Part shown: in pieces, positions 40,607-49,158 of the stretch
Position numbering within the stretch: position 1 is the stretch's first letter
Layout of the letters: each line of letters opens with the position of its first letter
DNA from: Polyporus tsugae
Taxonomy: Eukaryota > Basidiomycota > Agaricomycetes > Polyporales > Polyporaceae
Assembly (NCBI GenBank): GCA_024305745.1
Contig: JAHRBS010000014.1
Coordinates: 2,549,501-2,613,500, forward strand
Direction of reading: 5' to 3'
DNA: 64,000 nucleotides
The notes under the pieces: model-generated
The model's input: the letters and a program-made list of their open reading frames with translations, nothing else
The model's database searches: none
What the model was told of the DNA's origin: nothing
Program-made: the position numbers and the translations under genes

Positions 40607-40686
40607 TCCAGTGGGCGGATGCCAGCTGCAGTGCCAGTGGGCGAAAATTGTCGGTGAGGCTTGAGCAAGATCGGGAACTTGTTATT

Positions 40687-40714
40687 ACTGTTTTCAAAAT
40701 GATACGGAATCGCA
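40687..40714 (+). repeat. Left terminal inverted repeat of the Tc1-like element
   Basis: First 28 bp match the reverse complement of 48391-48418 at about 25 positions, including ACTGTTTTCA and GATACGGAATCGC. Similarity fades inward. Confidence 0.85.
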
Positions 40715-40999
40715 TTTCTCGCGCACCGCCTGGGCGCTCGTTCCAACGGTCGGGCCGGGCAGTGCGATCGGCGCTTAAGCGCACTGGTCGTTCCGAGTCG
40801 TCGATTCCCTCGTCCCTCCCTCTGGATTCGCAATGGCTCGCAGGAAGGTATCAACTGATCTCAAAGCCCGCATACCCGTCTTGTTTCTTGACCAGAGGCG
40901 CTCTGTTGCGGAAATCTGCGAGATTCTGGGTGTTGCAAAGAGTATGGTGTACCAGACTCTAGCGTACATTCGGCAATATGGGACACCTCAAAACCCCCT

Positions 41000-41004
41000 C
41001 GCGA
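41000..41004. repeat. Target-site duplication, left copy (CGCGA)
   Basis: Identical to 47341-47345, immediately outside the other LTR. Five bp is the standard length for Copia elements. Confidence 0.95.
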
Positions 41005-41332
41005 TGTTGAACCCGGGGGCAAAGCCCACACCGGGCAGCAACTCTAGCGGAAGCTCCGCATACTCACCTGGAGGGGTTGTTGAGGCTTGTTAAGTGATGA
41101 TGGTGGTAGGGTGTAAAGAACTGTCTGTATTGGGGGCTCTGGGGAGCCCGTATATATACTACTAGATTACATAAGAACTGTTCAGTAGCATACACGGTGC
41201 ACAGTCGAGCTGTGCGTGATTATCATAGACGAGGCTATGAGTAATCTGGCATGTGTGACAACTGGCGCTATGGCGGTGTCACAGCCTAGCGGCTATGTTG
41301 GCTGCCAGCGCTTGGCAGTGCCGCGCTCAACA
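41005..41332 (-). repeat. LTR (3' LTR in element orientation)
   Basis: 328 bp, starts TGTTGA and ends TCAACA (6-bp inverted ends). Differs from the other LTR at three positions. On the element's strand it contains a TATATATA box followed by a pyrimidine-rich leader, as expected for U3-R. Confidence 0.95.
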
Positions 41333-41343
41333 CTCCCCCTCGC
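41333..41343 (-). other. Polypurine tract
   Basis: Minus strand reads GCGAGGGGGAG directly against the 3' LTR. The Gag-Pol stop codon (TAG, 41345-41343) abuts it, so coding extends to the very end of the internal region. Confidence 0.8.
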
Positions 41344-44300
41344 TAAGTACTCGGCATGGGTACGAAAGCGGATTTGGCGCTATAAGCTGGCCGTGGAAAG
41401 TGGAGCCCGAGTTGAGAGCGGAATTTAACGAATTTCGTCGCTCCCAAGTTCTTGGTGAATATATCGGTGGGATTGTTGTCACCTTCAATGTAGAATAGGT
41501 CGACGATGCCCTTTTCATGTACCTCCCGAATGTAGTGATAGCGGATGTCGATGTGTTTAGACCTCGGCTCCGTTACTGGATTCGATGCAATGAAGATAGA
41601 CCCTTGGTTATCTCCAGAAAGAGGTATATGATCAATATAGTAGCCGAGTTCTGCAAGTAGGTTGCGAACCCAGACTACTTGGTGACTACAATCACTCATC
41701 GCCATATACTCAGCCTCAGTTGAGGAATGAGCAATCGTTTTCTGTGCACGTGAAGTCCACGAGAAAACACCACCCGCTAGTTTCAGGAAGAATCCTGTCT
41801 GCGAGCGTCGAGTGTTGGGATCTGATGCCCAATCAGAGTCAGTACCGGCAACTAAGCCAGTCTGAGCTTTGCCTTTGTAAACCAGGGAGTAATCCTTGGT
41901 TCCAACCAGATAGCGGCAGATATAGAGTGCACGCTTGAGGTGCTCCTCAGATGGGTTGGATGCAAACTGGGACAATTTTGTCACAGCGAAGGCTAAGTCC
42001 GGCCTTGTTCCTAACATGATATACAGTAGGGAACCGATGACTGTCTGGAACCTAGAGCGAAGCTCTGGTGTGGATTGCTCTTTGTTGGGCTCAGGTTGGT
42101 AACCTGCTGGGAGCGGAGTAGTAGCTGGTCACGTGTTAGTCATGCCGCAACGTTCCAGTACTTTCTCTAGGTAGGCGCATTGATCCAGGTGGATATCGTT
42201 GCCTTTGCGTGTAATACGCATGCGTAAGAACGCTTTGGCATCGCCAAGGTCTCGACACTCCCACTTTCTCATGAAGCGAGCTTTCAGTTCAGCTACGAGC
42301 TTCCTATTTCGCCCACAAAAGAGTGCATCGTCAACGTAGACGATAACAACTACAAGTGCTCCATCAGAGCGTTTGTAGATGTATATGCCTGCATCATTGC
42401 TGAGCCATTTAAAGCCCATCAATGTCATGGACTCAGACAAGGTGCGCCACCACGCTAAACCTGCCTGCTTAAGCCCATATAGAGCACGTTTGAGTCTGAG
42501 GACTTTGTGCTCTGTGCCGGGTGTGCGAAACCCTTCTGGCTGCTCCATATATATCTCTTCGTCCAGCTTGCCATATAGGTAGGCACTGCGTACATCGAGG
42601 CCTGAGATATGCCAGTCCTCGAGCGTTGCTAATGCTGTGATGAGACGCACTGTCTCGAATCGTACAACTGGGGAGAATATTTTGTTGAAGTCTTCGCCTT
42701 CGACCTGGGAGAAGCCTTTCGCAACAAGCCTGGCTTTCTTTCGTCCGTCAGTTTTGACGTCGAATACCCAGCGGTTCTTGACGACCTTTCGCCCTTTGGG
42801 CCGGTCAACCAAGTCATACACATCGCGCCTGCGAAGAGCCTCTAATTCTTCGCGGCAAGCGTTGAACCACTCCTTTCGCTCATCCTTTGGTAGAACAGCG
42901 ATATCACGGAAGGTCCATTCGCGCACATTAAGTGGCGAGGCCTTCTCCCCCTCATCGTCTGGTGGGATAGCCTTAGAAATAAGGTATTGGATGAGATATG
43001 CTCCCCCTTCCCGGCATAGTTCTGCCACATCAGTTCCGTCTGGATCACGCAGGGCATCTTCGACTTCCTCTGAGGACGCGTCTTCATCATCATCATCTGT
43101 TTCTTCCTCAGAACTTTCGTTCGAGTGTGCCTCTGAGCTTTGCTCACTAGGAGCGCCTGAGTGAGGTGGAGGGACTGGCTCTGCAGGTATAGGTTCCGGT
43201 ATGGGACCAGAGTCATCCTCTTCCTCAGTGTCACTGCTACTAGGTGAGATCATGGGAGTAGGCTCCCGTGGCGTGGTCCATTTCGAAGGTGGACGGAGTA
43301 CGGGTTCATCGCGTGATCGCGGAAGTGATCGAGAAGAGCTAGGCCCGGGAAGCCTCTCATCTCTGGATGGTGGCGCGGTACGAGAGCGACTTGTTTCTCC
43401 ACGAACTTCAACCATTTTCTTCCACGATTCCCATTTCTCTATGTCCTTGAAAATGTCTGTAGGGTGTCGTGATTCACCATAGACATTCCCTTCGCGAACT
43501 GGTACTTTCCGTTCTCTCCCAGATCGTCGCGGAGGACTCGCGCCAGATCTTTCAACCGGAGGAGATTGCGGCAACACAGGGCTATGCACACTCCGCGGCG
43601 TCTGTCTGCGTGAAGTACGCTGTACAGGTAGTTCAGCCGGTGGTGCAGGAGGTGCGACGTCTCGCACCTTGCCCTTGTCCTTTTTAGAAGGAAGGTTTTT
43701 GGGAGGACGATGTGGCTCCTCATCGTCATCAGGGAGATTCTTAGGAGCGGGGACTTGGTCCGCGGATTCCTGTGATTCCTCTTCATTGGGCGCAATCTGC
43801 TGCCTCTGTTGCTCCTGCTCGTGCGGACACTTCGGAAACATATGTTCATCAAATAGCGCTTGAGCAGCTGTAAAGATGACATTGTTTGGTAGGCGCATGA
43901 ACTTATAATTGTGACTTCCATCGCCGATGCCAAGGTAAACCATCAACTCCGATTTGGGGGATAGTTTATTCTTCCGCACTTCAGGTGGCAAGAAGACATA
44001 GGCTCCACATCCAAAGACGCGTAGGTGGCTAATGTCTGGCTTGGAGTTGTATAGAAGTTCATAGGGGGTTCGCCATTCCAGACGACACATAGGCGTCCTG
44101 TTATAGACGTGTGTAGCATGATCAAAGGAGAATTCCCACCAGGACTGAGGTATGCAAGCGTCATGTCGCATTGCCTCCCCTTTGTCCATGAGCGTACGAA
44201 TTATGCGCTCGGCACGGCCATTCTGTTGATGAATGTGTGGTGCACTGGTTATAATCTCGATGCCTCTGTCCTTGAGCATATTCGTGAAGGCTTTTGATTT

Positions 44301-46694
44301 CAATTCACCTCCAGCATCAGATTTCCATTTCTGCACCTTTGCGCCATATTGGTTTTCAACATATGTCAACCATTGTCGCGTAGATTGTAGGGCAGTGTCC
44401 TTGGTACGAAGTTTGACGGTCCACACGTGTGAAGTGTAGTCATCATAGTACAGTATAGCATACTTGTGTTTGTGGTACGAAGGGACAGGGAATTCTTTGA
44501 GGTCCGTGTGGACTAGCTCAAAAGGTTTTGACGCTCGTCTAAGATCGAGCGGATGGGATTGCGATGGCATTTTGCCTTCAGCACATCCTCGGCAAATCGA
44601 GTCCTCTTTGGGAATCTCAACATGCGGGCACTTGTCAGTGTGTTTCCGAGCATGTCTCAGCACATCGCGCGAAGGGTGTCCTAAGCGACGGTGTAGAGTA
44701 TCATAGTCGACAGCTTCAAAGGCTGTGATCATGTTTCGCGCCAGTAAAGGCTGCGTGAAGATGACATAAATAGTGTCACCAACGTTTCGTGGTTGAAACG
44801 TGACTACTTGCTTATTTGCTTGGTAGAAGGAGATACTAGCGGTCGATGCACGCGCTTTCATTCCTTCACGGAGTAATGCTCCCATTGAAACAAGTTTGTT
44901 GGTAAGATTTGGGACCAAGGCGACATTCATCAGCCTTATGGTCTTTCCAGACTCTAAAGTTAGGAAGACAGTCCCTTCACCAGTCATGAACGTGACCCCA
45001 TCTGCTGTGTATAGCGGTCGATGGACTTTGTAGTACCGGAAATCGGCGAAGTCACTCATGTTGAACGTAAAGTGCATTGACGCTCCTGAGTCGAGCATCC
45101 ACATGTTCGAGTCTTGCCGTTCAATCTGCTTATTCTTTCCCTTACAGCGCGCACACTTAGCATGTGAAGAGTGGTGAGGACATGTATTCTGCTCTATAGC
45201 TACAGATACATGCGGGCTGTTTACACAACAAGAGGGACTTGCGACATTATCAGCTGCCATTAAGGGCGCAAAGTCAGCATACAACTTGTTGTGGGGAGAA
45301 GAATAGACTGACCAGTACTGATCGAAGAAAGATTCAACTTCATCTTCAACCACGCCGAGCGACATGACGTCCTCGTCGTCCGTCAGCTCGTTCATCGGGT
45401 CGTCCAGAGGGGCGAGGCGCTCCTCTAGGGTGCGCTCTGACATGCGCTCCCTGAGGGTGCGCTTGCACTTGGGCGCGCGGTCCTCCTCACTGTCTGAGTC
45501 CTCGAGCTGCAAACTGCTGCTCTCCTCGGTGCCACTGGGTAAGTCGTTGCCACCACTCATCGTCGGAGATTGGGTTGATGAAGATGCGAGTGGGGTGGCC
45601 ACAGGCGAAGCCGCGCGGTTCTGTTCCTCCGGGGCGCGAGGGGCCTGTTGGAGTCGGACGAGGTCCTCGAGGATGCGGATGCGCTCGAACGTTGGCTGGA
45701 TGCCGAGTTCCTCGGCGAGGGATATGGCAGACGTGAGCGAGGGGTACTTGTTGTCCCCTGTCTTTGCGCGGACGGGCTTGCGCATGAGAGCGTGCGGATC
45801 CTCCACTCCGCTGGGGCCCTGGGTGATCGTGGTTGGGACGTCAGTGATGTGGGCAAAAGGCGCCACATCAACCATATGGGCAAAGTGCGCATGTTGGTGC
45901 GCACCTGGCTGTCCACCACGACCACGTCCAGAGCGGCGGCCGTGAGAGCGTCTGCCTTGTTGCTGCTGCCCATCAGGGCGCTGCTGCTGCTGCTGCTGCT
46001 GCCACTGAGGGTGCTGCTGCTGCTGCTGACGGAAGTTGGGGTCCGGCCCCTTGCGCTTGACAGCGCTGATCTTGTTGGCGTTGTTACGCGACTGGTGACG
46101 TCCTTGGCGCTGTTCCCAGTGCATGATCACGGCCTGGCGGACGCCGGCGAGCGTGATCTTCTTGATGGCAGGGCCAGCAGCATCATCCTTCAGGCCAGAG
46201 ATGTAGACCTGGATGACGGGATCCATGGACTGAGGGAGCTTGGAGACAAGCATCATCCCCTTGACGTGCTCTGAAACGTCGAACTTGTTGGTATCAAGGC
46301 GCTGGAAGTGCGCCTCGAGCTTGTCGAGGGCTGGGATAGGATTGGAGTCGCTGGGGACGGTGAGACTGATCGCGGCACGGAAGTCTTGATAGACGATGGG
46401 GATGCCCGGCTTCCCGTAGTTCGTCTTGAGGTGGTTCCAGATGTCCGCGGCAGTGGTCTTGCTAGCGATGGCACTGATGATGCTTTGAGCGAGGCGAAGG
46501 CGGATGTTACCCATGGCCTTGCCATTGAGTCCGTCCCATTCTGCTTGCTTGTCAGCGTCGGTGGCGGGGCGAGACTCGTTGATGACCTTCCACTGTCCTT
46601 GTGCCAGGAGGTAGGACTCCATGGTCACGGCCCACTCGAGGTAGTTGGGGCCCGTGAGGACGCTGGTAACGGCGGTGTAGAGCGCGTTCGACAT
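41343..46694 (-). pseudogene. Copia Gag-Pol polyprotein with one in-frame stop
   Basis: About 1783 codons in one frame from ATG 46694 to TAG 41343, broken once by TGA at 42131-42129 between reverse transcriptase and RNase H. Domains with rough positions: UBN2-type Gag (residues 10-200, TGPNYLEWAVTMESYLLAQG); a Q-rich then Arg/Gly-rich stretch (220-265) where a zinc knuckle would be; aspartic protease at 535 (MWMLDSGASMHF); GAG-pre-integrase (CRGCAEGKMPSQSHP); integrase core at 725-840 (HTDLKEFPVPS, GRAERIIRTLM); reverse transcriptase at 1300-1500 (NRWVFDVKTDG, LDVRSAYLYG, VYVDDALFCG). RNase H follows the TGA (GTDSDWASDPNTRRSQTG, SSTEAEYMAMSDCSHQ, KHIDIRYHYIRE). The TGA sits in a conserved linker near TNT-stop-PATTPLP; CGA to TGA by CpG deamination is a likely origin. 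Confidence 0.93.
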
Positions 46695-46997
46695 TGTGCG
46701 AGAGGGGTTAAAGTCTGGAGGGAAGAAGACGTGTCAGTCAACATCCACAAAGACTTTTTAGGGCAGCGGTCATGGAAAAACGCGCTGGCATAGGTTCCCC
46801 CTCTATTTGGTGGAGGGCAGGCAGCGACCTCGAAGGCGCGCCACATCCAGCTCCACTGCTGTGGATGGCAGGCAGCGGATAATCGCGCCACATCCATCCA
46901 ACAGGTTGTCTGCCATAACGGCGACGAAGGGATTCCAGGCGAGCTGGAAGCCTCACAGGTCGCAGCCAGCAATGAGCGGCGCAGTACCTGGGCATCA
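46695..46997 (-). other. Retrotransposon 5' leader
   Basis: About 300 bp between the primer-binding site and the Gag start. It would contain packaging signals; I see short direct repeats around TCCACTG/ATCCATCC but nothing decisive. Confidence 0.5.
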
Positions 46998-47012
46998 CCA
47001 GGGCTCATAACC
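46998..47012 (-). other. Primer-binding site matching initiator tRNA-Met anticodon arm
   Basis: Directly inside the 5' LTR. The plus strand reads CCAGGGCTCATAACC. CAGGGCTCATAACC is the anticodon stem-loop sequence of eukaryotic initiator tRNA-Met (CAT anticodon inside), not the tRNA 3' end. This is the half-tRNA priming known for Drosophila copia and Ty5. Confidence 0.8.
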
Positions 47013-47340
47013 TGTTGAACCCGGGGGCAAAGCCCACACCGGGCAGCAACTCTAGCGGAAGCTCCGCATACTCACCTGGAGGGGTTGTTGAGGCTTGTTA
47101 AGTGATGATGGTGGTAGGGTGTAAAGAACTGTCTGTATTGGGGGCTCTGGGGAGCCCGTATATATACTACTAGATTACATAAGAACTGTACAGTAGCATA
47201 CACGGTGCACAGTCGAGCTGTGCGTGATTATCATAGACGAGGCTATGAGTAATCTGGCATGTGTGACAACTGGCGCTATGGCGGTATCACAGCCTAGCGG
47301 CTATGTTGGCTGCCAGTGCTTGGCAGTGCCGCGCTCAACA
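47013..47340 (-). repeat. LTR (5' LTR in element orientation)
   Basis: 328 bp, same ends as the left copy. The three differences I count lie at the sites corresponding to the T/A, G/A and C/T changes in the right half of the plus-strand LTR. Confidence 0.95.
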
Positions 47341-47345
47341 CGCGA
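47341..47345. repeat. Target-site duplication, right copy (CGCGA)
   Basis: Matches 41000-41004. Removing one copy restores the transposase reading frame. Confidence 0.95.
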
Positions 47346-48390
47346 GACAAGCTGGCCGCCCCCGTGTCCTTATGGGGGAACATATCCAATTCATCCGCAC
47401 CCTCCTTAATGAGAAGCCTACCCTCTACCTCGATGAAATCCAGGACCACCTTACTCGCACGTTTGGCATCCGCGTCTCCCTTGCCACACTTGTCCGCACC
47501 CTCCGTCGCATCCGCTACTCATCAAAGGCTGTTGTGAAGGGGGCAGCTGAGCGAGACGATCTTCTGCGCGCTGCTTTCATGAACCGCATCGCATTGGAGG
47601 TCCCTGACCCATCTATGCTTATGTTTGGTGATGAAAGTGCAGTCGATCAACGGGCAGCAATCCGCAAACGTGGATGGGCACCCCTGGCTTCACACTGTGT
47701 TCAAAGATCCTGCTTTGTCCGAGGACAGCGATATTCATTGCTCCCCATCCTCACAATTGATGGCCTCGTGACCTTCAAAGTGTTCGAGGGTTCCGTCACA
47801 AGCGAGCGGTTTGTGGAATTTCTCCGCGAATTTGTGGTATGCTCCATGTATATGTCTGAATTATGCACATCATGCTAACTCTTTCATAGATTCCACTCAC
47901 CACACCATATCCTGGCCCACGAAGTGTGTTGATTTTGGACAACTGTAGTATTCATCACGCAGAAGCCGTGCGGGCACTGGTTGAAGATGAGGCTTGTGAG
48001 TTATAAGGTGTCAATGATTTTGTTACTAATGCTCACAGTCACTTTGTAGTGTGCAAGCTTATCTTCCTGCCACCGTACTCCCCCGACAGAAATCCTATTG
48101 AACTCGCTTTCGGGTTTATCAAATCACAGCTCCGCCGAGCGAACCACGAGCTAGTTGTCTCGGACATTAGCGAGGCGTGCTACAAGGTCACACCGGAGAT
48201 GGCGAGAGGATGGTTTAGATGTGCGGGGTATATGTAACTGATGAAACAACGCATCTACCGTACATAAGCTAGCAATGTAACCCACCCGTCGTCGAGTCGG
48301 ACGTCTCACCGGGACTGAGCGCCCACGGAGAAAGGACATAGGCGCCCTCGCCTCAACCGGACCTGGGCGGCTAGGGCGCGATGGCGAAAA

Positions 48391-48418
48391 CGCGATTCCG
48401 TATCAATATGAAAACAGT
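48391..48418 (-). repeat. Right terminal inverted repeat of the Tc1-like element
   Basis: Reverse complement starts ACTGTTTTCATATTGATACGG, matching the left end with a few substitutions. Confidence 0.85.
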
Positions 48419-49158
48419 TATAAAGTTGTTCGAACTCTTTTTGTATTCGTGGGAACTAGCCTTTTCTCCGCGCTCAGCATATGCTTACATAATTTCATCC
48501 GCATTGCGGGCCTCTTCTCAAGAACTTTCGTCGTCATCTTATATTATCCCTGCTGTACGATATCGTAGGGCGGATTGGACGCGATCGAAAGTTTGGAGGC
48601 AGCACTGTCACGATGTGGATACTGTGTGGATGTCGATTATGAGAGGTTCTTCAATTCGACAGATATTATCTCCGATTCCTAATGCCTATGACCTTTGGAA
48701 ATATCCATCGCTCCACGGTTTCAAGGGATACTACTCTCATCTGCTGCCTGGTCTGAGCTTCGGCGGCCTCTTGAGATTCAACTTGAATTTAGTGACACTG
48801 TCAACAAGCTCGAGGGCCATTTCCGCAGATAAGGCTGCGTCCCTGTCATTAGCCGATCGGCTATTAGGGAGGTGCCTGAACGACTCGTGCATTGACATCC
48901 ACCGACGACGAGAGAGACGTCTCAAACACCCTCGAGGGTCTCCACTAAGGTTCTCTCCTCAGTTCTCCCTCCGCTGCTTCTTCTACTGCTCTCTATCTTC
49001 CGGGCTGTTTCGTCTGCTGCTGTCGCCTCTGTGCATCCGACGTCTTCCATTACCATCGCCGAACAACGCACAACACACCATCTGCCTCGCCTGCCTAGTA
49101 TGTCGATTGGTAGCTGAACTCTCCACATCCTACGCTGCTCTTCTCGCCACGACGCAGC
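48419..49158. other. Upstream region of the Ser-rich coiled-coil gene
   Basis: About 740 bp. Pyrimidine-rich from 48900 to 49150, consistent with a promoter/5' UTR. A plus-strand open frame of 323 codons begins inside the transposon end (48381) and continues through here, but its content looks like translated CT-rich noncoding DNA. Confidence 0.5.

Follow-up and report, generated by a model that had tools for sequence, protein, structure and literature searches.

A Polyporus tsugae Copia retrotransposon whose putative primer-binding site is complementary to the anticodon arm of host initiator tRNA-Met

With which primer does a retrotransposon begin minus-strand DNA synthesis when the bases at the inner edge of its 5' LTR are complementary to the anticodon arm of a tRNA and not to its 3' end? 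The question arises in a window of 64,000 nucleotides (the whole stretch of DNA analysed here, contig C3:2549501-2613500 of a searched genome of 43.2 Mb in 18 contigs), in which a Ty1/copia element with 328-bp LTRs and a 5-bp target duplication occupies positions 41005-47340 on the minus strand. A first-pass annotation, made from the letters of the window, had placed a primer-binding site (PBS) of 15 bases at 46998..47012, assigned it to the anticodon arm of initiator tRNA-Met (iMet) and read it as a sign of priming by half a tRNA.

The identity of the element carrying this site is clear from its coding sequence and its boundaries (Table 1). Its gag-pol frame contains matches to Retrotran_gag_2, Pol_BBD, GAG-pre-integrase (below cut-off), rve, SH3_retrovirus and RVT_2, and the order Retrotran_gag_2, Pol_BBD, rve, RVT_2, in which the integrase precedes the reverse transcriptase (RT), is that of Ty1/copia elements (Pseudoviridae), as are the LTRs and the short target duplication. 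The RVT_2 match of the window copy is interrupted by one in-frame TGA, and a Pfam search of the 224-aa downstream frame gives no match. Among 120 listed relatives of the pol sequence are proteins from Trametes sanguinea, Ganoderma sinense, Antrodiella citrinella, Phanerochaete sordida, Pleurotus, Lentinula and Agaricus, which points to a polypore-type basidiomycete as the probable host. The joined flanks of the element, a 30-base empty site, are found uninterrupted at eight exact places and one with a single mismatch elsewhere in the genome (reversed control, 0), which fixes the boundaries of the insertion. The recipient of the insertion is itself a DNA transposon, the 36-bp inverted ends of which are 89% complementary and a DDE_3 transposase piece of which lies to the right of the copia LTR.

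Table 1. Positions in the window of the copia element, its primer-binding site and the DNA transposon that hosts it.
Feature	Coordinates	Strand	Basis or remark
PBS, sense GGTTATGAGCCCTG	46999..47012	-	complement of host tRNA-iMet nt 26-39
5' LTR, 328 bp, sense TGTTGAGCG...GGTTCAACA	47013..47340	-	3/328 mismatches to other LTR
3' LTR, 328 bp	41005..41332	-	LTR comparison
Putative polypurine tract, sense GAGGGGGAG, directly before 3' LTR	41333..41341	-	sequence reading
gag-pol open frame, 1521 aa	42129..46694	-	Pfam matches
Downstream open frame, 224 aa	41343..42017	-	sits where copia elements carry RNase H; position only
Target-site duplication CGCGA, left copy	41000..41004		flank comparison
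Target-site duplication CGCGA, right copy	47341..47345		flank comparison
DNA transposon hosting the copia element	40682..48423		inverted repeats 40682-40717, 48388-48423

Read on the plus strand, positions 46999-47012 are CAGGGCTCATAACC and adjoin the LTR beginning at 47013; in the sense of the element the PBS stands in the context ...TTCAACA-GGTTATGAGCCCTG-GTGATG.... These 14 bases are the exact complement of nt 26-39 of the iMet gene, a segment that runs from the 5' strand of the anticodon stem through the loop and takes in two bases of the 3' strand. A genome pattern search recovers four host iMet genes of identical sequence, each with the 14-mer at nt 26-39. The first-pass annotation had staked its reading on such an alignment, and the stretch is present exactly in all four genes. 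Its site has to be shortened by one base, as 14 of the 15 positions pair exactly but base 46998 falls outside the match: a sense G stands opposite tRNA nt 25, which is also a G, and this leaves a match of 14 bp. The site does abut the 5' LTR as described, although the minus-strand orientation of the element had been left unstated. If all four bases are taken as equally frequent, an exact iMet 14-mer would stand at this one position with a probability of about 2e-7, and one from any of an assumed 45 tRNAs with a probability of about 1e-5. The duplex predicted for the first 24 leader bases is -31.0 kcal/mol with the half-tRNA versus -16.8 kcal/mol with the tRNA 3' end, both energies being given without a shuffle control.

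The site was compared with 34 distinct host tRNA sequences, namely the loci of 30 of the 63 listed tRNA matches together with the four iMet loci. Among these 34, tRNA 3' ends extended by CCA match the LTR edge at 7 of 14 positions at best, and the best internal match of a tRNA other than iMet reaches 10/14. The first-pass annotation would have yielded to a better-fitting 3' end of another tRNA, and this part of the host tRNA set contains none. The site that the iMet 3' end would pair with, TGGTAGCAACTC, occurs in the genome at background level (5 versus 5 for the reversed pattern). Part of the tested loci lies on contig C18, which is dense in tRNAs and looks mitochondrial.

We then asked where else the 14-mer occurs. 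The exact sequence is found 94 times in the genome versus 0 times for the reversed pattern; four of these occurrences are the iMet genes and 90 are other sites. Allowing one mismatch yields 112 matches versus 9 reversed, that is 18 further sites, six of which are listed. A list of matches to RVT_2, the Copia RT domain, was compiled from 100 scored candidates and holds 98, a lower bound. Upstream of 77 of these 98, on the right strand and 2.3-4.25 kb away, lies a copy of the site; the 77 sites pair one-to-one with their RVT_2 matches at distances of 2346-4250 bases, and the distances recur by family (e.g., 3422, 3841 and 4208). Since the sites were found through the exact 14-mer, their identity to one another follows from selection, and 77/98 is the fairer measure. 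Wrong-strand pairs at 2-4.5 kb are seen for 4 of the 98. As a control we used RVT_1 (Gypsy/LINE-type) matches, 150 of 242 candidates having been scored. Over 2-4.5 kb none of the 150 listed has a site in the correct orientation and one has a site in the opposite orientation; when the range is widened to 7.5 kb, two have a correctly oriented site.

No exact upstream site accompanies the other 21 of the 98 RVT_2 matches. In six 400-bp intervals upstream of such matches, whose placement relative to the true 5' ends is a guess, one 13/14 site is found behind an LTR of the window family; the other five intervals contain no convincing site (best 8-11/14). Thirteen of the 90 non-tRNA sites are without a listed RVT_2 partner, and the three of these that were read (L005, L084 and L091) all lie at LTR-like ends. 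L005 (G000:C1:1021645) combines the LTR end and PBS of the window family with a different leader, and perhaps represents a non-autonomous or recombinant relative. L084 (G000:C2:2481414, 2482062) carries the PBS twice in the same orientation at a spacing of 648 bases, and one of the two copies follows an LTR end that differs in part and precedes a leader that differs as well; the pair is perhaps a nested or duplicated 5' end.

Of the 90 non-tRNA sites we read 29, the window's own included. Every one of the 29 directly follows an end in A, and in all 29 the base before GG is A and not a further G, from which the 3' end of the primer should be nt 39. The next base downstream extends the iMet match to 15 in 16 of the 29 sites, the window copy not being among them. 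By LTR end and leader the 29 sites form five groups of 14, 4, 8, 2 and 1 sites; both LTRs were compared only for the window element, and the LTR of the other groups was read from the sequence end. One RT piece per group was compared, with a second piece from one of the groups; identity is 32-47% between the five groups and 91% for the two pieces of a single group. The 30 bases before the site share 8-13/30 positions between groups and the 30 bases after it 4-12/30, where 7-8 are expected by chance. The leaders of groups 2 and 3 are the exception; they agree at 16/30 positions and may be related, so that these two groups are not fully independent.

At the level of sequence, then, the 14-bp complement is exact, it is placed at the LTR edge, and it is present upstream of most of the listed Copia RTs. 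The exact iMet match and the lack of a fitting 3' end among the tested tRNAs support the half-tRNA reading of the first-pass annotation, and we consider it very probable that the 5' half of host tRNA-iMet, paired with the PBS, primes synthesis of the minus DNA strand, as in copia and Ty5. In such a mechanism the cut in iMet would fall between nt 39 and nt 40, in the 3' strand of the anticodon stem; the resulting 5' half would anneal to the PBS, and RT would extend it from the half-tRNA 3' end into U5. RNase P is a candidate for the nuclease by analogy with Ty5; it is likewise by analogy that we infer cleavage, nuclease, packaging and priming.

Other origins of the 14 bases must be weighed against priming by the iMet 5' half. 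The element could possess a conventional PBS offset from the LTR, for 12 bases in there is a TGG that starts TGGTGATGCCC and would pair with a tRNA ending GGGCATCA-CCA. This TGG is present in the window family, but a TGG directly after the 14-mer is absent from the four other groups, and a T-arm pattern followed by GGGCATCA occurs at a single place in the genome, where ARAGORN finds no tRNA gene. With no 3' end among the 34 tRNA sequences exceeding 7/14 at the LTR edge either, an offset site is extremely improbable. We give as little credence to self-priming, in which the cut-off 5' end of the element's own transcript pairs with the PBS, as is known for fission yeast Tf1 and has been predicted for plant TAR elements, according to passages in PMC5445492 and PMC6317226. 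The complementarity of the PBS to the element's own transcript start that characterizes the Tf1 type is not seen in the window element, where the longest exact complement between PBS region and LTR is 6 bases and shuffled LTRs mostly give 5-7, and self-priming would leave the exact iMet match unexplained.

It is also very unlikely that the 14 bases play no part in priming and are left over from a decayed tRNA fragment or shared through common descent. Passive inheritance is feasible within one family, and the leaders of groups 2 and 3 are alike in part (16/30), yet the site is kept at the same junction in groups whose RTs are 32-47% identical and whose other flanks agree at near-chance levels (4-13/30). 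Moreover, the homology to the tRNA stops within one further base, and the RVT_1 matches are without the site. In Ty1 the leader contacts other parts of iMet as well. A search for extra contacts of this kind between the window leader and iMet returned a longest exact run of 7 bases, within the range of shuffles, and one of 10 with G-U pairs (unshuffled), and the candidate was rejected.

To our knowledge, half-tRNA priming is experimental for copia and Ty5 alone and is a matter of sequence reading elsewhere. The primer of copia is a 39-nt 5' fragment of iMet and so has the same end, nt 39, as the one deduced for the window element. The identity of that primer is biochemical and concerns a different host and a different sequence, and the use of the Ty5 primer was reportedly tested by Ke et al. 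in 1999, whereas the primer of the window element is inferred from the DNA. Half-tRNA priming marks the genus Hemivirus in the ICTV profile; judged on a PBS that complements iMet nt 26-39 exactly and that no tested 3' end fits, the element is probably a further case of the known half-tRNA-primed kind. Drosophila copia, for which PMC5371799 describes a half-tRNA primer, shares the Ty1/copia domain order with the window element, and the Ty5 primer is described there as an iMet that owes its 3' end to a cut within the anticodon region, for which RNase P is held responsible.

Comparable sites have been described in fungi and plants. The basidiomycete Puccinia hordei harbors Copia-28 (Copia-28_PHord), with a PBS for the iMet anticodon loop and 5-bp TSDs, and this loop also predominates among the primer types of fungal Helenus elements (PMC10886601). 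Those Copia families that the same source names from P. hordei use the loops of tRNA-Tyr, -Ile, -Asp or iMet, or the iMet 3' end; as far as descriptions can be compared, several primers there contrast with one iMet site at 77 of 98 Copia RT matches here. Among plant elements, Osser, Bryco and part of Gymco-II have a half tRNA-Met PBS and Bianca a half tRNA-Ile PBS (PMC6317226); by description these are Ty1/copia elements with a half-tRNA PBS as here, but of plant lineages. The ascomycete FunCo1 Copia element likewise has a PBS complementary to an internal tRNA region, but that of tRNA-Lys (Drosophila gene) rather than iMet, and fungal GalEa Copia elements are reported to have a hairpin site and no PBS (PMC5445492). 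For polypores, we recognized no description of half-tRNA priming in the open-licence literature searched.

We put forward as tentative, and as somewhat doubtful, the wider proposal that nearly every Copia lineage of this genome depends on the same iMet 5' half, ending at nt 39, and that this machinery spread a set of Helenus-like repeats that carry tRNA-Cys and lie near the same elements. If true, replication of every Copia element in the genome would pass through one shared bottleneck, a cleavage step of the host. The identical 14-base site in at least five divergent groups offers a natural test of how well the position of cleavage is conserved, and iMet halves are a simple target to look for in fungal small-RNA data.

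The repeats in question are 249 bp long, read TGTTAGG...GCTAATA, and contain a tRNA-Cys(GCA) gene in their 3' part as identified by ARAGORN. Matches at 96-100% identity number 17 in the genome (one copy at L044:1484-1732), of which one is incomplete. Fifteen of the 17 are found no more than 25 kb from an RVT_2 match, versus about 11% of random places (eight contigs); Copia elements are reported at centromeres in Ganoderma leucocontextum (PMC10817607). Helenus elements are recognized by a tRNA-like sequence inside the LTR, a 5-bp TSD in fungi, and two LTRs with PBS and PPT. None of the 17 matches is seen to belong to a full-length element with two LTRs or a PBS. The fungal tRNA-coding Helenus families named in PMC10886601 carry tRNA-His and -Thr, and its main text does not mention tRNA-Cys or cysteine. 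Of twelve copies read, 11 are intact at both ends, and perfect 5-bp duplications bound 5 of the 11; among the remaining six, two share the same flanks and probably go back to the duplication of one copy. Since the closest pair on the same strand is about 10 kb apart, the tRNA-Cys repeats resemble solo LTRs left by an element of the Helenus type.
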